Origin: Nitrospirota bacterium
Lineage (GTDB): Bacteria > Nitrospirota > Thermodesulfovibrionia > Thermodesulfovibrionales > Magnetobacteriaceae
Reading direction: 5' to 3'
Length of the DNA: 41,233 nt
Assembly: GCA_015233015.1 (NCBI GenBank)
Contig: JADFYO010000029.1
Span: 1 to 41,233 of the forward strand
Below the pieces are notes generated by a model that saw nothing but the letters and a program-made list of their open reading frames with translations, ran no database searches and had not been told where the DNA came from. Each line of letters opens with the position of its first letter. The first letter of the stretch is position 1. The position numbers were made by a program, and so were the translations under genes. This document shows, piece by piece, positions 25,843 to 41,006 of the stretch.

Positions 25843-27936
25843 CTACTTCTTTAACTCATTTAAGGTCTTTTCTATATTGACTATCAAATCTTTCTTTTCC
25901 AGAGGTGCCTTTAATAATACGATATTTAAAAGGATTCGCTGGTCGTAAGGCTTCCCGAATTTCATAGACAGCACGGCTAAATTATATACATCGTCAAACG
26001 ATAACTTCTCCGAAAACACATCGACCGCTTTTTTCAGGGCATCATATGCCTTTCTTTCCTGCTTCATGTTCAAATAGCACATGTATAGCTGGTGGTAAAT
26101 TCCCTTTTTCTCGGCATCGCTGGCCTTATCGAAGGAAATATTCAATACTTCAACCGCCTCTTCATATTTATGAAGCCGGCTGAGCATATCCGCTTTTATG
26201 TTATAGGCAGTCGGGATTTCAGGATAAAATTTAATAGCTGCGTCTATAAATGGCAATGCCTGTTCATATTCTCCTTTCATGACATATATGCGTGCCAAAG
26301 ACTGGGTGACAAGAAGGCTGGGATAGATATCGAAAATCCCCCGTGCCTCTCTGATATACTCGTCGCTCTTGCCGGCAGGGGTTTGGTCCGTCAGCTCAAT
26401 TCTGAGCGCGAATGGATTGATTTCTCTGATTTCATATTTGGCGGCAATATCGGGATAGATAAGTTTATTTACATACAACACTTCGGCGTCGTCAAAAAAG
26501 ATAAGTGTATAATTGGTATAATGTTTGCTGAAATCGCCCAATGAACTATACGTAATTGGTATGGTTATAAAAGCCGGATTGTATTTATTAATGACATTTC
26601 TCAGCACTATCTCTTCCTTGAATACACGTAATGAAGCAAACATATCATAGTCCGTAAATAAATGAGGGACTTCCATATCCATAAAGATTTTATACTTTGG
26701 ATAAAGCATCCACTGCAGGTATCCTCCATTATTATGGGTGTTCAGGATATTTCCGCCAGCGTCCAATCCTAAGAGAAACTGTGTGACGCCGCGCGGCATA
26801 GTTGACGGCAGTCTTTTCATGTCTGTCAGGGCATTATTGAGAGTGAGCACCGCTATTAAAATAAATACGGTATTGACAACCCCCTTTGTTTTATCTGCTT
26901 TAAATAAATTCTCAAAGGGATCGGCCTTTGCGATACAAGGCAGGGCAAGCAGCACAAATTCATTAAAAAATCGTAACCCCCGAAACAATAAAAAAGCCCC
27001 TCCAATAAACAAAATCGCTTGGCTTAACTTGATAGTTTTATTTAAGACACTCTGAGAAAAGGCAAGGAAGGCCATCAACACTAAAACACTGCCAAACATC
27101 CTGATATCATGGCTGAGGGGCGAGACAACAAACGCAAACAGCTCGGCAAATGAAAATGGCCTCAGTTCTTTGATATATATTGACGCATAATCGGTTGGAA
27201 TGAAAGGCACTTTAAGAAGGCCGGGGCCGTTTGGAGTAAAAAATATCATCGCCGCCGAGATTACAAGCGATATTATTAAAACCGTATTTTTTTCATTATT
27301 ATTGCCAGCCCGTGGCCGTATTCGAAGCAACAATGCCTCAGCTGAGTAAGCCGCTATTATCAGCAGCATAACAGGATACTCTATGCCATGCACATTAGAC
27401 CATATCAGCGCTAACACAGGCAGGACAAACGCCTTTCGGGGGTGAAATTCAATAATGTATATGAAGGCCGCTATTATGGTATAAGTAAACACATGCGGCC
27501 TTAGATTTGAGTATCTGTCAATTAATCCTATGGCATAGAGAATGATTATAAATGCGATATAGGGAATATTTTGTCTTTGTTTTTTGTATAGAAACGAGAG
27601 AATAATTGACAATATTAAGATATAGAACGCCGTCCTGAAAACGATAAGCCCGAGGTCGCCGTAGGAAGAGTATATCTTATAGACTATAACCTGAAACAGC
27701 CAGAAGTAATTGCTGCGGTCTCTCTCCGGTTGTATGAAAGAGAAAAAGCTGCTGTATGCCGGGCTTGCATTTGTCGAGAAATACCTTCCCCCGCTTAAAT
27801 GGTACCACAGGTCTGTGTCTCCCACAAAAAGCGGGATAGACGCGAACATATAAATTGCGGCGATTAACAGAACAACTATTATCATTACATTGTAATAATT
27901 GCTCTTATTAATCGCCGTTACCTGTTTTTGGCTCAT
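25843..27936 (-). CDS. Polytopic GT-C-like membrane protein with TPR tail
   Basis: The 697-residue protein has about 10-12 hydrophobic helices (about 15-375). The first periplasmic loop contains GDTDLWYHLSGGR, an acidic/His motif like those of GT-C-fold glycosyltransferases, and NLRPHVFTY follows a later helix. A soluble segment with HNNGGYLQWMLYPKYKIFMD resembles a conserved region in bacterial GT-C-like proteins. The C-terminus (about 545-690) is helical TPR-like repeats (YIREARGIFDIYPSLLVTQS, then units at about 575 and 607). It begins 8 bases after pilQ, with no clear ribosome-binding site, so it is likely coupled to it. A role in pilin or envelope glycosylation is inference. Confidence 0.7.
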   Translation of the reverse strand: MSQKQVTAINKSNYYNVMIIVVLLIAAIYMFASIPLFVGDTDLWYHLSGGRYFSTNASPAYSSFFSFIQPERDRSNYFWLFQVIVYKIYSSYGDLGLIVFRTAFYILILSIILSFLYKKQRQNIPYIAFIIILYAIGLIDRYSNLRPHVFTYTIIAAFIYIIEFHPRKAFVLPVLALIWSNVHGIEYPVMLLIIAAYSAEALLLRIRPRAGNNNEKNTVLIISLVISAAMIFFTPNGPGLLKVPFIPTDYASIYIKELRPFSFAELFAFVVSPLSHDIRMFGSVLVLMAFLAFSQSVLNKTIKLSQAILFIGGAFLLFRGLRFFNEFVLLALPCIAKADPFENLFKADKTKGVVNTVFILIAVLTLNNALTDMKRLPSTMPRGVTQFLLGLDAGGNILNTHNNGGYLQWMLYPKYKIFMDMEVPHLFTDYDMFASLRVFKEEIVLRNVINKYNPAFITIPITYSSLGDFSKHYTNYTLIFFDDAEVLYVNKLIYPDIAAKYEIREINPFALRIELTDQTPAGKSDEYIREARGIFDIYPSLLVTQSLARIYVMKGEYEQALPFIDAAIKFYPEIPTAYNIKADMLSRLHKYEEAVEVLNISFDKASDAEKKGIYHQLYMCYLNMKQERKAYDALKKAVDVFSEKLSFDDVYNLAVLSMKFGKPYDQRILLNIVLLKAPLEKKDLIVNIEKTLNELKK

Positions 27937-27944
27937 CTATCGGT

Positions 27945-30458
27945 TTACGAAGGCTCGTCTGCCTCTCTGTTTACAATCCGGGGAGTTATGAATATCAGGT
28001 ACTCGCTAAGGGTTCTCTGATAGGTCTCGGTCTTAAACAGCCATCCCAGTACCGGAATGTCTTTCAGAAGTGGAAGGCCCTCCTCGCCCGACGTCTCTTT
28101 CCATTTGAAAACACCACCCAATACGAGGGTTTCGCCGTCTTTTACCAATACCTTCGTATCTTCTGAAACCTTTGATGTCTGCGGGGCTGAGCTTCCACCG
28201 ATTGTGACTGAGCTTTCGAAGTCCTCCTTGCCTATGGTCAACTGTAATATAATCGAATTGTCGGGGGTAATCTGCGGCGTAACGGATATGCTTATCGTTA
28301 CGTCTTTGAAATCTGCCGAGATTTCACCCTGAGCGTTCATCTTAGGATAAGGAATGCTCTCACCCTGAGATATGGAGGCCTTTTGGAGATTTAACGTGAG
28401 CAGGCGCGGGTTCGTGAGGATTTTCCCCTGATTGGTCGATTCCAGCGCATTGAGTTTCAGGTCAAGTGACGCGGTCTGGGCGGAATTTATAAACCCGAGT
28501 GCAACGCCGCCGCTTAACCCGGATACTACCGTAGGTAAAGTGCCCAGATATGTATTGCCGGTCAGCGTGCCCTCTGCTGCCCCAACGCCAAGCCCGCTTG
28601 CCTTGCTTGAGCTGACTGCCTTATTATTATATCCCAGCACACCCCAGTTTATGCCGAGGGTGTCGTTGACGCCCTTTGAGACTTCCACAATTCTTGCCTC
28701 TATCAGCACCTGTTGCGGCGGCTTGTCTAATTGTTTGATCATCTTTTCTATATTGTTCATGACACGCGGGATATCAACCACAATAATGGAGCTTGTCCTT
28801 TTATCGACTGTCATCGAGCCGCGCGAAGATAATAACCCTCCATATGCCGCGGAAGAAGAGGTGGATGTGCTGCTATATTGCGATTCCAGATAGGAGGCCT
28901 TTGCAATCACTGCTTTGTTTATTGCCTCTTTTGCCGCGTCTGTGGAGTTAGATGCAGTGGAAGCAGCCGGGGTGGCGGGTGGCGGCGGGGCTATCGATGT
29001 CAGAAGGCCTTTTATATCTTCTACCGTTGCGTAGTTGATTTTGAATATTTTGGTCACGAGGGGTTCCATTTGTTCTTTAGTATCCATAATACTCTTATCG
29101 GTAGTTAACCTTTTTTGTTCTGCATCCTTCTCCGCGTCAAGTTTTGCCTTGGGGGCAATTCTTATTATATTTCCGGTAACTTCGCAGCCAAGCGAATGAA
29201 TCTTCAGTATCAAATCGACTATCTGAAACCACGACGAATCCTTCACCTGCATGGTTATCTGCCCCTGAACAGTAGGGTCAACTACTATGTTACAGCCGCT
29301 TTCCTCTGACAGTATCTTGAAAACCGACACAATGCCGGCGCTTTGAAAATCCAGGCTGAGCAGTTTGTTGTTCGTGCCGCAGGACACTTCTTCACCGCAG
29401 AGATGTCCCTTTACTTCGTTGACAGGTGGGGCCGGAGCAGCCGGAGCTCCCGCATTATCGCCTTCAGCGCCTGACAAGGACACAGGCAGTGGGGACGCAC
29501 CAGGAGCTGGAGCGTCAGTGGGAAGCGCCTCTTCAGCCGGTTGCGCGGCGGCCTTTGCCGCGTCCGATTTTTTCCATTCCGCAGCGTTAGCCTTGCGCCT
29601 TGCCTCTACGCCGGACTTCTTTTTCATTAACGCGTCAACCATTGCCGTCGTCGTCAGAGACACTATCACGGTGTCGCCTACGTTTAATACCTTTGACGAG
29701 GCATCTTTATCCAGTGTTATAACGAGCCGCACACCTGAAACCTTTTCCTCCCATTTGAGATCCAAAACAGGGGGGATTAATTCGGTTGGCATGACGGCGG
29801 TTAAACGAACGCCGGGGATGTCCAGAAACATTGTCTCTCTCAGCGTCGAGTAATTCGGTTTCATAGTGCCGTCGCCCTGGATTACTATGTTTACGGCGCC
29901 GTCCTCTTTTTTAAATGTCAAACCGGTTACATTCCTCGCGTCAGAGCTGTATGGGGCAGGGGCGCTTTCCGCGGTATCAGTCACGGGCATAACAAAGCCA
30001 TCGTCGCCGGGGATGGGTTGTACCGGTGCAGATGCGGTATCTCCCTGTCTTTTGACGTTAACTGTCAGGACTTTGCCGGTGACGGCATGGGAAACTTCCA
30101 GCGGTGCGGATAAGGTTATCTCGATAAGGGTTGCCTTTACGGGCAGCGTCTTATTCACAAACGCTACCTCGCTTATGCCTTCCTTTTTAGGGATTATACG
30201 CTCTGTGAATTGCCCCTGGTTAACCCCTTTTAATTCGATAAACACCTTAAACGGGTCAGCGGTTCTCGAAAAGGTATATTCAAAGTTTTCGGCAGCCGTG
30301 AATTTCAGCGAATAGTCTTCGATACTAACCGCCTTTAATTCGTTATCGACGACGGCGCGTTCGGGTTCTTCACCCATTGTGGTGCTTATGGTAGCACAGC
30401 TGGAAATTAATAACAGCGCTAACAATAATGAAACAACTATGCTGCTCTTACCGATCAT
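27945..30458 (-). CDS. pilQ: PilQ, type IV pilus secretin with lipoprotein signal
   Basis: The 837-residue protein begins with a lipoprotein signal (LLLISSC lipobox, Cys about 21). It then has two AMIN domains (about 44-138 and 175-270), a Pro/Ala-rich linker, an STN/N0 domain (about 365-440, SLDFQSAGIVSVFKILSEES), an N1 domain (about 465-590) interrupted by a Ser/Ala/Thr-rich insertion, and the secretin pore domain (about 640-830; ILTNPRLLTLNLQKA, VLGGVFKW, DIPVLGWLF). PilQ forms the outer-membrane channel for the pilus. GGAGG lies 7 bases before the ATG. It is the sixth gene of the operon. Confidence 0.95.
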   Translation of the reverse strand: MIGKSSIVVSLLLALLLISSCATISTTMGEEPERAVVDNELKAVSIEDYSLKFTAAENFEYTFSRTADPFKVFIELKGVNQGQFTERIIPKKEGISEVAFVNKTLPVKATLIEITLSAPLEVSHAVTGKVLTVNVKRQGDTASAPVQPIPGDDGFVMPVTDTAESAPAPYSSDARNVTGLTFKKEDGAVNIVIQGDGTMKPNYSTLRETMFLDIPGVRLTAVMPTELIPPVLDLKWEEKVSGVRLVITLDKDASSKVLNVGDTVIVSLTTTAMVDALMKKKSGVEARRKANAAEWKKSDAAKAAAQPAEEALPTDAPAPGASPLPVSLSGAEGDNAGAPAAPAPPVNEVKGHLCGEEVSCGTNNKLLSLDFQSAGIVSVFKILSEESGCNIVVDPTVQGQITMQVKDSSWFQIVDLILKIHSLGCEVTGNIIRIAPKAKLDAEKDAEQKRLTTDKSIMDTKEQMEPLVTKIFKINYATVEDIKGLLTSIAPPPPATPAASTASNSTDAAKEAINKAVIAKASYLESQYSSTSTSSSAAYGGLLSSRGSMTVDKRTSSIIVVDIPRVMNNIEKMIKQLDKPPQQVLIEARIVEVSKGVNDTLGINWGVLGYNNKAVSSSKASGLGVGAAEGTLTGNTYLGTLPTVVSGLSGGVALGFINSAQTASLDLKLNALESTNQGKILTNPRLLTLNLQKASISQGESIPYPKMNAQGEISADFKDVTISISVTPQITPDNSIILQLTIGKEDFESSVTIGGSSAPQTSKVSEDTKVLVKDGETLVLGGVFKWKETSGEEGLPLLKDIPVLGWLFKTETYQRTLSEYLIFITPRIVNREADEPS

Positions 30459-30501: not shown

Positions 30502-31971
30502 TTATTCCTTCACCTTTTTCTTTTGAGATACGGGTTGTGTATCCGTTTGATTCAAATCCAGACATATGCCGCCGTCGCCGGCCGCTAAGTTTGCCCGTTT
30601 TATAGTCTTTACTACACCGTTGGCGTCAGAGAACGTGACGCTTATATCGCTTATATACAGAGATTGGCCGGATTTACTGCCGGCAGAGGACGCAAGCGTC
30701 TCGCCGGGGACTATTCTTATTACGCCGCCCTCTACGATTTTCTTTAACCTGCTGGAATCCATGACTAAATCCAGTGCCTTTTCCCACGGCATATCCTTGA
30801 CATGAATAGACACCTTACCGCTTACCTGCGGGTCAACCACTACGCTAAAGCCGCTTGCGGCGGCTATGAGCTTTAGAACCGACGTAACTTCAACATTATT
30901 AAAGTCCATAGTTACAGGTTCACTATCGTGCGCGGCCTGCGGTTTTGGCTCTTTTGCGGCGGGTTTGTCATCTCTTTTGACCTTGGAGGCGGCAGGCTGC
31001 GCGGGGGCCTCAGCCGGCGTCTCTTCGACAGCCGGGGCCTTTTCTCCGGCATGGGCCAGGGCGGCAGCGTCGGCTATGTAGATAACGAGTTTATCGCCTA
31101 GCTGCTCGGCCTTATATACCGTGTTATCGGATAAATCCATCACTATCCGCACCTTGTCATTGTATTGTGACCATCGGATTGAGTTGAGGGGCGGCGCAAT
31201 ATCTGTTGGCACTGCAGCCGCCATTTTTGCCCCGCGCAAATCGGCGACAACCCTTCCCTCAAGGGTAAATACGTCTGCCGTTAATGTGCCGTCTCCCGTT
31301 ATCTCCACTCTGGCGGCCTTGTCCGAGTCTTTCGCAAATTGAATGCCTGTTATATATTTTCCCGCGGGTGAACGTCCTTTTTTCTGGGCAGGCTTTGCTG
31401 TGAGGGGCGTTGAACTTACACCCGGCTCCGCTTTAGCAAACGACAGAGACAGGTTGTTCTCGGAATAATTGTCTTTTATCCTGACAATCGACGTAAGCGT
31501 CAACACCACTACCGCATTTGTCCTCTGGGCATCGGACGGCCTCACTGTTATGTCTGCTACCTTAGTGCTTCCCGGCAGTATAATATCTTCAAAACGTCCC
31601 GGAGAGACGTCATATAAATCGATCATCTTTGTATATGGATCGTCGGTGTCCGTAATCCTGTATCTGAAGGGTTTGGCCGCCGTTATATTTACAAATTCAT
31701 TTGCCACCTCTATTGATTTAATGGCGTTGTCCGGCTGCCTGCGCGGGCTGCCAGCGTCCGATACCTTAGCGTTGTCAGAGACGTAGGGGGCTGGCGCCGC
31801 CGTGGTTACCGGTTCTTTTGCCAAATCCATAGCCGTGATGGGCTGGTCGGACGAGACATTTGAGGCATTTTTTGTGTTTTCAATCGCCGGTGCGCAACCG
31901 TAGAGAAACGCGCAACTATAAAGGGAAATAAAGCATAAGCCGGTTACTGTCAATCTTTTCATTTTCTTCAT
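30502..31971 (-). CDS. AMIN/STN lipoprotein, truncated secretin-like paralogue
   Basis: The 489-residue protein starts with a lipoprotein signal (CAFLYGC, Cys about 26), then two AMIN-like domains (about 88-185 and 205-300), a Pro/Ala/Lys-rich linker, and one STN/N0 domain (about 353-425; TMDFNNVEVTSVLKLIAAAS, VDPQVSGKVSIHVKDMPWEK). It ends with a short unique tail and has no secretin pore domain. Its layout mirrors the first half of PilQ, so it is probably a duplicated, shortened relative acting as a pilotin-like or peptidoglycan-binding helper. Its ATG overlaps the pilP stop by 4 bases. Confidence 0.88.
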   Translation of the reverse strand: MKKMKRLTVTGLCFISLYSCAFLYGCAPAIENTKNASNVSSDQPITAMDLAKEPVTTAAPAPYVSDNAKVSDAGSPRRQPDNAIKSIEVANEFVNITAAKPFRYRITDTDDPYTKMIDLYDVSPGRFEDIILPGSTKVADITVRPSDAQRTNAVVVLTLTSIVRIKDNYSENNLSLSFAKAEPGVSSTPLTAKPAQKKGRSPAGKYITGIQFAKDSDKAARVEITGDGTLTADVFTLEGRVVADLRGAKMAAAVPTDIAPPLNSIRWSQYNDKVRIVMDLSDNTVYKAEQLGDKLVIYIADAAALAHAGEKAPAVEETPAEAPAQPAASKVKRDDKPAAKEPKPQAAHDSEPVTMDFNNVEVTSVLKLIAAASGFSVVVDPQVSGKVSIHVKDMPWEKALDLVMDSSRLKKIVEGGVIRIVPGETLASSAGSKSGQSLYISDISVTFSDANGVVKTIKRANLAAGDGGICLDLNQTDTQPVSQKKKVKE

Positions 31972-32531
31972 TCCTGGTCCTCTTTTCTTAGTTGTATTGA
32001 CTGTAAAGACTTGATCTCTTTGCCGAGTTCGTCATATTTAACCACTTCGACAATAAGCCTGTCATTGTTTATTTTGACAACCCTTCCGCCTTCATTGCCC
32101 AGATATGTCTTCTCCGTAATAACATATGTCTTTCCTTTGATTTCTACGACGGCATATTTATTTTTCGCATCCATCACGATACCTTTCAGGGCGATAGACT
32201 TCAGATCGGGTTCCTCCAGAGGCGAGAGTGCGCGGGGCGGCTTGTTCACCTTTGCCGGCGCGGACGCGGGCAGCTTCTTATCTACCAGCGGCATGAAAGG
32301 GTCTCTCCTTCCACTGGATTCATATATGTACCGCTCTATTGCAAGAGGCGTTAACGCCGACGCCGTCTCGTTATCCATGGCGGCAGGGGCAGCAGGCGCA
32401 GGCGGCGGCGATGCTGGCGAGCCGGACACGGGAGGGATAGCAGGGCATTCCCCTGGCGCGCCCATGAGGACACAAAAGGCTCCCAGCGCCGCTATGAGGC
32501 GTAATCTGCTTATTATATCTCTGAAATCCAT
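31968..32531 (-). CDS. pilP: PilP, pilus alignment-complex protein
   Basis: The protein has 187 residues. It has an N-terminal hydrophobic signal (about 10-25), a Pro/Ala-rich disordered region, then the PilP core: SSGRRDPFMPLV, ALKGIVMDAKNKYAVVEIKG and a beta-rich end. PilP bridges the PilN/PilO complex to PilQ in the periplasm. Most PilP proteins are lipoproteins; here the candidate MGAPGEC has Glu before the Cys, so the lipobox is atypical. The ATG at 32531 follows the pilO stop directly with GGGGA upstream; upstream GTG-like extensions would overlap pilO. Confidence 0.9.
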   Translation of the reverse strand: MDFRDIISRLRLIAALGAFCVLMGAPGECPAIPPVSGSPASPPPAPAAPAAMDNETASALTPLAIERYIYESSGRRDPFMPLVDKKLPASAPAKVNKPPRALSPLEEPDLKSIALKGIVMDAKNKYAVVEIKGKTYVITEKTYLGNEGGRVVKINNDRLIVEVVKYDELGKEIKSLQSIQLRKEDQE

Positions 32532-32532
32532 G

Positions 32533-33114
32533 TCATTTCCCCGGTTCGGGTATCGAAGAGAAAGTTCGGGCCTCAAGGCTTATCCCCAGAGTGGCCTCCT
32601 TGTCTGATGTCCTTGTGGTCAGATCGATTTTCGATGTGTTGACAATCCTGTCCAGCGCCGTTATTCTGCTCAGGAAATCGCCAAGTTTGTGATACGTGCC
32701 CGTAACTTGCACCCTGACGGGTATCTCATAAAGTATATTGCTCGGATGATTTCTCTTTTGCTGAGGTTCCCAGAGGTCAACCTTTAGACCGGCGCTTATA
32801 GCGCTGTCCGATACCTGCTTGAGAAGGGTTGTTATCTCGTTTTCCTCGGGTAGGTACCTTCTGATTTTATTATACTCATCTTCGGCTGCCTTCTGTTGTG
32901 TCTTGAGGACGGGCAGCTTTGACACCCTTTTTTCGGCAGTGGCTATGTCTTCGTCTGTCTTTTTTATCTCTGTTTTCAATTTACCGATTTGTTCGGTCGT
33001 CGGGCTGTACATCAGCAGATAAAAAGGAATGGCTATTAAGATAGCCGGCAAAAAAGCTATCAATGCCTTGAGGCCGGGGTGAAGCTTGTTTATGTCCGGC
33101 ATTACAATCGCCAC
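32533..33114 (-). CDS. pilO: PilO, pilus alignment-complex protein
   Basis: The 193-residue protein has one N-terminal transmembrane helix (about 15-33), a coiled-coil stretch (KLKTEIKKTDEDIATAEKRV, about 43-63) and a C-terminal ferredoxin-like domain (SISAGLKVDL-type segment, PVRVQVTGTYHKLGDFLSRI). PilO pairs with PilN on the periplasmic face. GTG start shares one base with the pilN stop; an ATG four codons later is possible. Confidence 0.9.
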   Translation of the reverse strand: MAIVMPDINKLHPGLKALIAFLPAILIAIPFYLLMYSPTTEQIGKLKTEIKKTDEDIATAEKRVSKLPVLKTQQKAAEDEYNKIRRYLPEENEITTLLKQVSDSAISAGLKVDLWEPQQKRNHPSNILYEIPVRVQVTGTYHKLGDFLSRITALDRIVNTSKIDLTTRTSDKEATLGISLEARTFSSIPEPGK

Positions 33115-33686
33115 TACGCCGCCGCCTTAACCGCCGTACTTATACTCATCTGCATCTCAAAATTATATACCGGCAGGTCGCTCAGAGCGCCGCTTTGGGA
33201 CTTGCTCAGATAGACATTATTAAACAGTTTTGAGTTCTTCAGGTTATTTACGAATATAACCACATCGTCGTTTTTCTTGGCCGTCCCGCTTAATTGCAGG
33301 CCCTGTTCGGTTATGCTCATCTTTATCAGCCAGACGTTGTCCGGCAGGAGTTTGCTGATTTCATCGAGAACCTTCACGGGGGTGCTTTGATTGGCCTTCA
33401 ACAGCTCGATTACCTTTTTATTTTCGTTAATAGTCTTTATTTTTGCCTCGAGGGCTTCGACATCCTTTGTCTTTGCCTTCAATACCTCAAGTTGTTTAGT
33501 TTTCTCCGCCTTTTCCTTTTGTGCCATATCCAGCGCATTTGACAACATCTTATACCCAAAACCTGCCGCCGCTAATGAGACCACCAGCACTAATACTGTT
33601 GCCGCATATACGAGAGGTATCGCTGCAGGGGGTTTTTTCCTTCTTTTCGCCTTTCCATCTGAGGGAAGGAGATTTATTTTGATCAT
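33114..33686 (-). CDS. pilN: PilN, pilus alignment-complex protein
   Basis: The 190-residue protein begins MIKINLLPSDGKAKRRKKPP, the conserved PilN cytoplasmic peptide that docks into PilM. It continues with one transmembrane helix (about 25-45), a Lys/Glu-rich coiled coil (about 55-95) and a small periplasmic domain (LPDNVWLIKMSITEQGLQLS). The ATG overlaps the pilM stop by 4 bases. Confidence 0.93.
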   Translation of the reverse strand: MIKINLLPSDGKAKRRKKPPAAIPLVYAATVLVLVVSLAAAGFGYKMLSNALDMAQKEKAEKTKQLEVLKAKTKDVEALEAKIKTINENKKVIELLKANQSTPVKVLDEISKLLPDNVWLIKMSITEQGLQLSGTAKKNDDVVIFVNNLKNSKLFNNVYLSKSQSGALSDLPVYNFEMQMSISTAVKAAA

Positions 33687-34741
33687 CTGTCGCCGAGCCT
33701 TCTCGTTGCCAGGCCAACGGCTATCGTGGCAACAGGCGCTATGGACTCTATATAGGCGGCGTCAAAACCCTTAGGTATCTTAATGTTTTTAAAGGGATTT
33801 AACAACGTTACCTGATAGCCTGTCATGTCAGACAACTTATCTTTTAACCCTCTTACCAGCGCTCCCCCGCCTCCAAGCCACAACCCTTCTATCGCCTCCA
33901 TCTCCGGCGAATCGCTGAAGAAATCCAGCGAATGATTTATCTCCATCACTATTTCCTCGGATACGCCGTCAATCACCGTGGCTGCCTGTTCAGGGGTTAT
34001 ACCGTTTACCGTCATACCGGTTTTTATCTGCTCCGCCGCTTCGTATGTTACCGAGAACTCCCTCATCAGGGCCTCTGTGTGATTTTTACTTCCAATGGAG
34101 CTGTCTCTTGTGAAGGCGGAGACCCCGTTTTTCAATATATTTATCGTCGTATTCGACGCACCGACGTTGAGCAGGGCAACACTCCTCGCCGATTCGTTCT
34201 GATAATTTGCCCCATACATGTTTTCGAGCGTAAAGGCGTCCACATCTACTATAACGGGAACTAATCCGGCCTCTTTGACCGCGCTTATGTAGCTGTTTAA
34301 TACATCTTTCTTTACCGCCACAAGTATCACGTCAATCTGGCCTGGTTCATCGGTGGGGCCAAGTATCTGATAATCGAGATTTACGTCGTCTATCCCAAAC
34401 GGCACATACTGCTCTGCCTCATAACGTATATTTTCGTTTAGCACCTCCTCTGTCATTTCTGGCAGAGTGATGCGTTTGATTATTACAGAGGAGTGCCCGG
34501 AGATTGATATTACGGTGTTTTTGGTCTTTATTTTTGCCTTTTTAATCAGCGCTTTGATTGCCTCGGCAAGGCTGTGCTGGTCTGCCACCACATTCTCGAC
34601 AATAAGGTCAGAGGCAATCGGCAGGAAGTCAAACAGCTCTAATTCGTATCCAGATTTGCCGTCTTTCAACTGCACGGCCTTTATGCTGGACGAACCTATG
34701 TCCAGCCCAAGCAGCGATTTAGGCCCAAATAAATCTAACAC
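33683..34741 (-). CDS. pilM: PilM, actin-like pilus assembly protein
   Basis: The 352-residue cytoplasmic protein has the actin-like fold signatures: GLDIGSSSIKAVQL at the N-terminus, ALLNVGASNTTINIL (about 189), and GLWLGGGGALVRGLKDKLS near the C-terminus. PilM binds ATP and the PilN tail, organising the inner-membrane platform. The start is a GTG at 34741 with no Shine-Dalgarno sequence; a nearby ATG is out of frame and stops after two codons. It is the first gene of the pil operon. Confidence 0.94.
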   Translation of the reverse strand: MLDLFGPKSLLGLDIGSSSIKAVQLKDGKSGYELELFDFLPIASDLIVENVVADQHSLAEAIKALIKKAKIKTKNTVISISGHSSVIIKRITLPEMTEEVLNENIRYEAEQYVPFGIDDVNLDYQILGPTDEPGQIDVILVAVKKDVLNSYISAVKEAGLVPVIVDVDAFTLENMYGANYQNESARSVALLNVGASNTTINILKNGVSAFTRDSSIGSKNHTEALMREFSVTYEAAEQIKTGMTVNGITPEQAATVIDGVSEEIVMEINHSLDFFSDSPEMEAIEGLWLGGGGALVRGLKDKLSDMTGYQVTLLNPFKNIKIPKGFDAAYIESIAPVATIAVGLATRRLGDR

Positions 34742-40535: not shown

Positions 40536-41006
40536 ATGGCAGACTATGAGGCTATGCCTTTGAAAGGTATCAGAGGTTTCTCGTTAATTGAACTTATGGT
40601 TGTTATTTCGATCATCAGTTTGTTGACCGCTATCGCCGTGCCGGCCTATTTGGGGCAGAGGGAAAAGTCAAAGGTCAGGGCAACTGAGTCAAACGCCAAA
40701 AGTGCGGCTACCGATTTACAAGGATACCTTGATTCCTATGTATCAGGTGACCCCTATATGGTAACTACTGATTCGACGGGCACTCAAGGATGCGTTGAGT
40801 CCGCTAGCGCATCGGCGGTTAAGAGTTGCTTAACCGTTTTCAATCAAGCCAGCGTGACCACATATCCGGCATTCCCAAACGGCCTGACAACGGTTATCTC
40901 CCACTTTGCCAGCACACACACGTTTAACGGCGACAAAAGCGCGTTCAAAAAGCTTCCCTTGTTCGTCACATCGCATACGGCAGATGGCTGGGGTCAGGTT
41001 CTTTAA
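40536..41006 (+). CDS. Type IV prepilin-like protein
   Basis: The 156-residue protein has a type IV prepilin leader and the cleavage motif GIRG|FSLIELMVVISII (cut after Gly14, or Gly8 if translation starts at the ATG codon 7), with Glu at position +5 and a hydrophobic helix. The globular part has two Cys residues (GCVES and KSCL) that could form a disulfide loop. Such pilins are processed by PilD and assembled through the PilMNOPQ machinery. The name pilA is not certain, since it could be a minor pilin. No strong ribosome-binding site is visible. Confidence 0.9.
   Translation: MADYEAMPLKGIRGFSLIELMVVISIISLLTAIAVPAYLGQREKSKVRATESNAKSAATDLQGYLDSYVSGDPYMVTTDSTGTQGCVESASASAVKSCLTVFNQASVTTYPAFPNGLTTVISHFASTHTFNGDKSAFKKLPLFVTSHTADGWGQVL

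Follow-up and report, generated by a model that had tools for sequence, protein, structure and literature searches.

The gene at positions 25843-27936 of the window, by which is meant the whole stretch of 41,233 nucleotides that was analyzed, codes for a membrane enzyme from a GT-C family that has not yet been named and is distantly related to the protein glycosylation enzyme STT3. Since family genes recur beside type IV pilin genes, the enzyme probably attaches sugars to pilus proteins. In literature searches, no publication was recognized as describing this family.

The gene and its setting in the window

The gene, the pil genes upstream of it, and a more distant pilin-like gene were located as follows:

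25843-27936, minus strand: GT-C/TPR gene, 697 aa, ATG start (ORF list, homologues)
27945-30458, minus strand: pilQ, the secretin gene, 8 nt upstream of the GT-C/TPR gene (Secretin domain, E 4e-45)
30502-31971, minus strand: gene for a protein with AMIN and STN domains, between pilP and pilQ (Pfam)
31968-32576, minus strand: pilP (PilP, E 3e-13)
32533-33114, minus strand: pilO (PilO, E 8e-31)
33114-33686, minus strand: pilN (PilN, E 7e-18)
33683-34741, minus strand: pilM (PilM_2, E 2e-75)
40536-41006, plus strand: type IV pilin-like gene, a possible acceptor, 12.6 kb away (N_methyl, 32.5 bits, over the cut-off)

As an earlier note on this DNA had claimed without mention of the strand, the gene starts 8 bases after pilQ; the gap comprises positions 27937-27944, and the gene lies on the minus strand. 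Upstream, the order is pilM, pilN, pilO, pilP, the gene for the AMIN-STN protein, and pilQ, all on the minus strand. That the gene closes a pil operon held in the window but not among the relatives fetched with their flanks, where pilQ was not a neighbor. A conserved pilQ adjacency was rejected after tblastn with the pil proteins of the window, in which no pilQ was found adjoining the relatives; weak secretin matches within 8 kb of relatives occurred only in loci L054, L063, and L064. The placement next to pilQ is a local one. In the pilQ product of the window, an STN domain was found together with an AMIN match that stayed below threshold, and the AMIN-STN protein encoded at 30502-31971 may have arisen by duplication of part of the PilQ N terminus.

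Full-length orthologues at 53 to 58% identity were found in genomes of the same genus, and relatives were also found in other phyla; therefore, the open frame is not a product of chance. The closest named relative (58%) was encoded on a contig of Ca. Magnetominusculus xianensis HCH-1, and a second copy (37%) was present in the same genome as the window, on contig C44 (locus L044). Members scoring over 500 bits were detected in 9 of the 295 genomes sampled in the window's own phylum. In the phylum sample of genome G306, which is also that of Solidesulfovibrio (G308), they were detected in 8/247 genomes at E 1e-80, or 9/247 counting G308, and the broad family in 83/297.

Fold, topology, and conserved residues

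The protein was divided into three parts, within which the following conserved elements were placed:

26812-27906, minus strand: membrane part, residues 11-375, 11 helices in the model, GT-C fold (AlphaFold2, fold comparison)
26422-26811, minus strand: periplasmic core, residues 376-505, superposing with the STT3 core (AlphaFold2, fold comparison)
25846-26364, minus strand: C-terminal TPR domain, residues 525-697, predicted to be periplasmic (Pfam TPR_2, model, charge distribution)
27796-27822, minus strand: EL1 motif GDTDLWYHL, residues 39-47, with D40, D42, and H46 (conservation)
27493-27516, minus strand: EL2 RYSNLRPH, residues 141-148, R-x6-H (conservation; pairing by hand)
27388-27402, minus strand: EL3 WSNVH, residues 179-183, with W179, N181, and H183 (conservation)
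27166-27168, minus strand: E257, aligned with the EL5 glutamate (SxSE) of STT3/PglB (conservation, profile alignment)
26971-26973, minus strand: R322, aligned with the EL6 arginine of STT3/PglB (conservation, profile alignment)
26677-26733, minus strand: NNGGYLQWMLYPKYKIFMD, residues 402-420, aligned with WWDYGYxxxYxxRRxTxxD of STT3/PglB (profile alignment)

In domain searches, the TPR part alone was recognized. Nothing in Pfam matched residues 1-522 at E values up to 10, TPR_2 being matched at 27.7 bits (cut-off, 27.0), and the NCBIfam matches were confined to the TPRs, with none in the membrane part. A profile of 43 members compared with PDB sequences revealed no relative of the membrane part, the two matches obtained (E 1.9 and 2.6) being at chance level. 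Ca. Magnetominusculus xianensis is magnetotactic; a match to the magnetosome protein MamA scored 30.9 bits, the cut-off being 200, and was rejected as a generic TPR match.

The AlphaFold2 model, built on 43 homologues, had a pLDDT of 90.8 and a pTM of 0.88. By our own count, it contains 11 membrane helices, and the TPR domain was evident in the model as well as in the sequence, so that the many helices and TPR tail described in the earlier note were both recovered. Foldseek ranked AglB, PglB, and STT3 first (E 7e-6). With VIA-align, yeast STT3 gave a Z of 23.6 and an rmsd of 4.3 over 450 aligned residues, covering about residues 3-493 of the model, followed by AglB (Z 20.3), PglB (19.5), Pmt4 (18.6), ArnT (17.8), and DPY19 (16.2). 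A model of the first 505 residues, without the TPRs, had a pLDDT of 90.2 and again placed STT3 first (Z 21.1); each of the 50 matches listed for it was either a GT-C enzyme or subunit U of the GPI transamidase (chain U), which we take to be a GT-C relative, and 57 of 1,000 chains reached Z 8. STT3 and other oligosaccharyltransferase catalytic subunits topped both structure comparisons, and helix 1, the large first external loop, and the multi-helix membrane body of GT-C enzymes were all present. The fold comparison that had been proposed as a check found a GT-C fold, the presence of which is considered almost certain.

The loops placed in the cytoplasm had K+R/D+E counts of 3/0, 2/1, 4/1, 2/0, and 3/3. 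These charges are consistent with a predicted N-in topology in which the periplasm contains the conserved loops, the core, and the TPRs. In close relatives, polytopic proteins of ∼620 to 633 aa adjoin the gene (L032:10418-14218, L034:7121-8983, and L054); the two examined had no Pfam match, and these neighbors are possibly further GT-C enzymes.

Conservation was scored over 33 close subfamily rows and 45 distant rows. The GDTDLWYHL loop pointed out in the earlier note directly follows the first helix (residues 11-33), and its acidic residues, whose conservation had been named as a second check, are retained: D42 was found in 33/33 close and 43/45 distant rows, the other two being gaps (76/76 ungapped rows), and D40 in 33/33 and 35/45. 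H46 gave the same counts as D42 (33/33 and 43/45, with 2 gaps; 76/76 ungapped). An acidic motif of the DxD, DD, or ExD type shortly after the first helix is a GT-C hallmark (PMC6801728), and D40-T-D42 is a motif of this type. Also present in all 33 close rows were R141 and, with distant counts in brackets, W79 (44/45, 1 gap), R146 (43/45), P147 (45/45), W179 (44/45), N181 (40/45), H183 (44/45), E257 (43/45), R322 (44/45), and D420 (40/45). H148 was found in 32/33 close rows, with Q in 24/45 distant rows.

Profile comparison with hhalign supports homology to STT3/PglB rather than to TMTC-like GT-C/TPR proteins of bacteria. Against a set of 10 STT3/PglB-like proteins, present in 10 of 99 genomes, the family profile gave E 8.7e-8 with a score of 70.6, versus 15.8 to 31.6 for seven controls (reversed STT3, TMTC-like, reversed TMTC-like, NuoL, NuoM, reversed NuoL, and reversed self). 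The 137-member profile gave E 3.7e-9 with a score of 79.2, versus 16.7 to 46.0 for five controls; the 46.0 came from comparing the 137-row family with itself reversed, so that the STT3 match stands out by a moderate margin. In the alignment, the SxSE glutamate lies opposite E257, the RF arginine opposite R322, and WWDYG...D opposite NNGGYLQW...D420. The catalytic residues of PglB are D56, R147, D154, D156, E319, and R375 (PMC6801728), and D42, E257, and R322 are the counterparts of three of these by alignment. By spacing, R141-x6-H148 would pair with R147-x6-D154 of PglB, with Asp replaced by His; the D154 position is occupied by H or Q in the family. The WWDxG pattern was absent at the aligned place in the core, occurring in 1/137 members outside that place, and PF02516 was matched neither by the protein nor, with E values of up to 10, anywhere in the genome.

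The replacement of PglB D154 by His, together with the adjacent pilQ in the window, would suit a catalytically dead GT-C protein serving as a pilus assembly factor, its TPRs docking PilQ or pilins in a role like that of TfpY or PilW; TPR proteins commonly serve pilus assembly. A scaffold would not need D42, R146, E257, and R322, however, and these are kept in distant branches without pilQ linkage. We regard such a scaffold as very unlikely, and the protein is predicted to be, very probably, an active glycosyltransferase.

Filament genes beside family members

In six genomes, 6 of 8 members lay within 3 kb of a PF07963 (N_methyl) match, the expectation by chance being 1.2 to 3.3% for each (P 7e-9 if independent); two sub-threshold N_methyl matches in genome G004 are omitted from this count. 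Under a single pattern used for every row, a pilin-like gene was found within 2.5 kb of 24/35 subfamily members versus 7/39 distant relatives (Fisher P 1.5e-5), rows that are not independent, as many are orthologues in one genus. Seventeen of the 35 lay within 500 bp of such a gene. With a strict pilin pattern the count within 2.5 kb was 22/34, and loosening it (A for G, D for E) gave the 24/35 by adding L058 and L054. The L054 orthologue, from Nitrospirae bacterium MYbin6 (L054:7974-10087), is broken into three ORFs by a frameshift or an assembly error.

In a tree of 137 tips, the window copy fell in a clade of 45 (support, 0.86), which contains an inner clade of 34 with support of 1.0. Pilin linkage was observed for 30 of the 44 other clade members versus 9/92 outside, counts that exclude the window copy, itself labeled as pilin-linked in the tree. 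The linkage needs 10 changes on this tree versus at least 28 in 500 shuffles.

In the closest relatives, L032 and L034, the gene comes last in a series of genes for a T2SSE-type ATPase, a T2SSF-type protein, and pseudopilins, as judged by a Pfam scan of L032 and one L034 protein. The paralogue from the window's own genome (L044) has five pilin genes and several other GT-C-like or TPR genes around it, one of the latter matching PMT_2, and the member in Solidesulfovibrio alcoholivorans DSM 5433 (L063) adjoins pilins. Recurrent pilin neighbors of the TPR-bearing branch span Nitrospirota, Deltaproteobacteria MAGs, and Solidesulfovibrio. The neighborhoods in many genomes give independent support to the earlier guess that the protein could glycosylate pilin, of which catalysis, donor, and acceptor stay conjectural. 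A pilin is the likely acceptor.

No pilin-like gene was found within 2.5 kb of 11/35 subfamily members, namely, L038, L040, L041, and L042 (one genus), L033, L043, L045, L047, L059, L060, and the window copy (12.6 kb). Some of these 11 are at contig ends. Three of the four from one genus adjoin genes taken, from their ORF starts, for FtsEX (putative).

These four members without a nearby pilin, along with 57/64 distant relatives in the Solidesulfovibrio phylum sample that are beside neither a pilin nor an OmcE-like gene, would suit a GT-C enzyme acting on a lipid-linked or surface glycan instead of a protein, the pilin linkage then reflecting shared loci for surface structures; nucleotide-sugar genes also occur in some of the pilin loci. 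Such an enzyme would not be expected to have pilins recurring beside its TPR-bearing branch in the three groups named above, its best fold matches (STT3, PglB, and AglB) all glycosylate proteins, and the long periplasmic core with TPRs suits a protein acceptor. A glycan acceptor is considered unlikely.

Among distant Nitrospirota members, 13/39 had an OmcE-like cytochrome gene within 1.5 kb. In the Solidesulfovibrio phylum sample, such a gene was found within 1.5 kb of 0/64 members and a pilin within 1.5 kb of 7/64, and a filament-only role for the whole family was unsupported in that sample. Distant relatives in nine loci (L145, L146, L147, L151, L152, L154, L155, L159, and L050) lie 0 to 500 bp from genes for four-heme cytochromes of ∼210 to 250 aa; the L145 cluster also holds PPIase and NHL genes. 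The cytochromes from L145, L050, L154, and L159, all four that were compared, matched 7tfs_A by phmmer (E 2e-35 to 5e-22). 7TFS is OmcE (PMC12954529), the filaments of which have been described as extensively glycosylated (PMC9473688). The side-branch members are candidate enzymes behind the reported glycosylation. A tentative and somewhat doubtful extension is an STT3-related family whose branches have specialized on subunits of extracellular filaments, pilins for the branch with the TPR arm and OmcE-like nanowire cytochromes for the other; the OmcE-linked branch would then supply the missing OmcE glycosyltransferase.

Proposed reaction, sugar donor, and known systems

The reading judged most probable is that of a periplasmic pilin glycosyltransferase of an STT3-related GT-C family. 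The protein would be an inner-membrane glycosyltransferase with its active site towards the periplasm, in which the donor and metal would be bound by the acid pair of the first loop (D40/D42), the R-x6-H loop (R141, R146, and H148), E257, and R322. Acceptor binding would fall to the periplasmic core and TPR tail, the acceptor most likely being a type IV pilin or pseudopilin that is handed to the same PilMNOPQ assembly machine. The likeliest donor would be a monosaccharide linked to undecaprenyl phosphate, for which an ArnC/DPM-type GT2 would be responsible. The fold, conserved residues, remote homology, predicted topology, and pilin linkage support this reading; catalysis, donor, acceptor, linkage chemistry, and the TPR role are its inferred elements. 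Counting against it are the missing WWD, the change of PglB D154 to H/Q, and the 11/35 members without a nearby pilin.

Clues to the donor came from genes beside the relatives. In L142, a pilin, a family member, and another pilin are followed by a GT2 near the ArnC (E 1e-64) and PgfS (3e-72) models, both matches being under the curated cut-offs, and by genes for WecD-like and NeuD-like acetyltransferases, a Gfo/Idh dehydrogenase, and DegT aminotransferases. L138, L139, and L143 resemble this locus, judged from ORF starts, and each of the four clusters, with its amino-sugar biosynthesis genes, looks like a dedicated pilin glycan locus. In L102, a GT2 gene overlaps the family gene by 20 nt and matches a dolichyl-phosphate hexose transferase, under the cut-off. 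These neighbors point to polyprenyl-phosphate monosaccharide donors, for the relatives concerned only. GT2 genes of such a type were found within 6 kb of 6/35 subfamily members, the window copy not among them. A monophosphate sugar donor is somewhat favored, but R322 matches the class of diphosphate-donor enzymes and makes this an uneasy fit.

A donor variant of the pilin glycosyltransferase reading, with which its confidence overlaps, is a PglB-like oligosaccharyltransferase that would transfer a whole oligosaccharide from undecaprenyl diphosphate under a different acceptor rule. STT3/PglB were closest by profile and by fold, and the alignment of R322 with the EL6 arginine also agrees with this variant. 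The ArnC/PgfS-like and dolichyl-phosphate hexose transferase-like GT2 neighbors of some relatives imply monophosphate donors instead, and the sequon pocket formed by WWD is missing; we consider the variant doubtful. If the protein is a pilin glycosyltransferase as proposed, it would represent a separate STT3-related route of pilin glycosylation in Nitrospirota, Desulfovibrio relatives, and uncultured Deltaproteobacteria, in which the TPR arm may choose the acceptor. The member beside pilins in the named strain S. alcoholivorans DSM 5433 makes direct testing possible.

The architecture had been said to recall the eukaryotic O-mannosyltransferases TMTC1-4 (GT105). The order of parts, a GT-C membrane domain followed by lumenal or periplasmic TPRs, is indeed shared, and the 11 helices equal the number given for TMTC (PMC6801728), as would be expected of a bacterial TMTC-type O-mannosyltransferase. 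However, Pfam scans of the protein found no DUF1736, the closest solved relatives were STT3, PglB, and AglB, with STT3 topping the fold ranking, and the profile against nine bacterial GT-C/TPR proteins reached only the chance level of E 0.26 (E 0.12 with the 137-member profile, for bacterial look-alikes only). A TMTC origin was rejected on these grounds as extremely improbable. Because the comparison with TMTC-like bacterial proteins was at chance level, the TPR tail is an analogy only; the two differ in closest fold, and no sequence relation with the bacterial look-alikes compared was found.

To our knowledge, the known bacterial pilin glycosyltransferases, TfpO/PglL and TfpW, come from few proteobacteria, and we know of no TPR tail in TfpW. 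PglL acts on type IV pilins in the periplasm. TfpO also acts on type IV pilins there, and TfpO and TfpW are both described as pilin glycosyltransferases (PMC11841053). The O-oligosaccharyltransferases TfpO/PglL carry a ligase domain of the Wzy_C type that is absent here, neither a Wzy_C nor a PglL-type Pfam domain being matched by the GT-C/TPR protein. TfpW, the Pseudomonas pilin arabinosyltransferase, is a pilin-linked GT-C enzyme that glycosylates pilins (PMC11841053). Unlike STT3/PglB/AglB (CAZy GT66), the present protein lacks WWDxG, has His for the EL2 Asp, carries an added TPR tail, and has 11 helices in the model versus 13 in STT3 (PMC6801728). These enzymes nevertheless gave its best fold match, including the periplasmic core, and a significant profile match, and it has conserved residues that would correspond to the acid of EL1, the Arg of EL2 and of EL6, the Asn of EL3, and the Glu of EL5.
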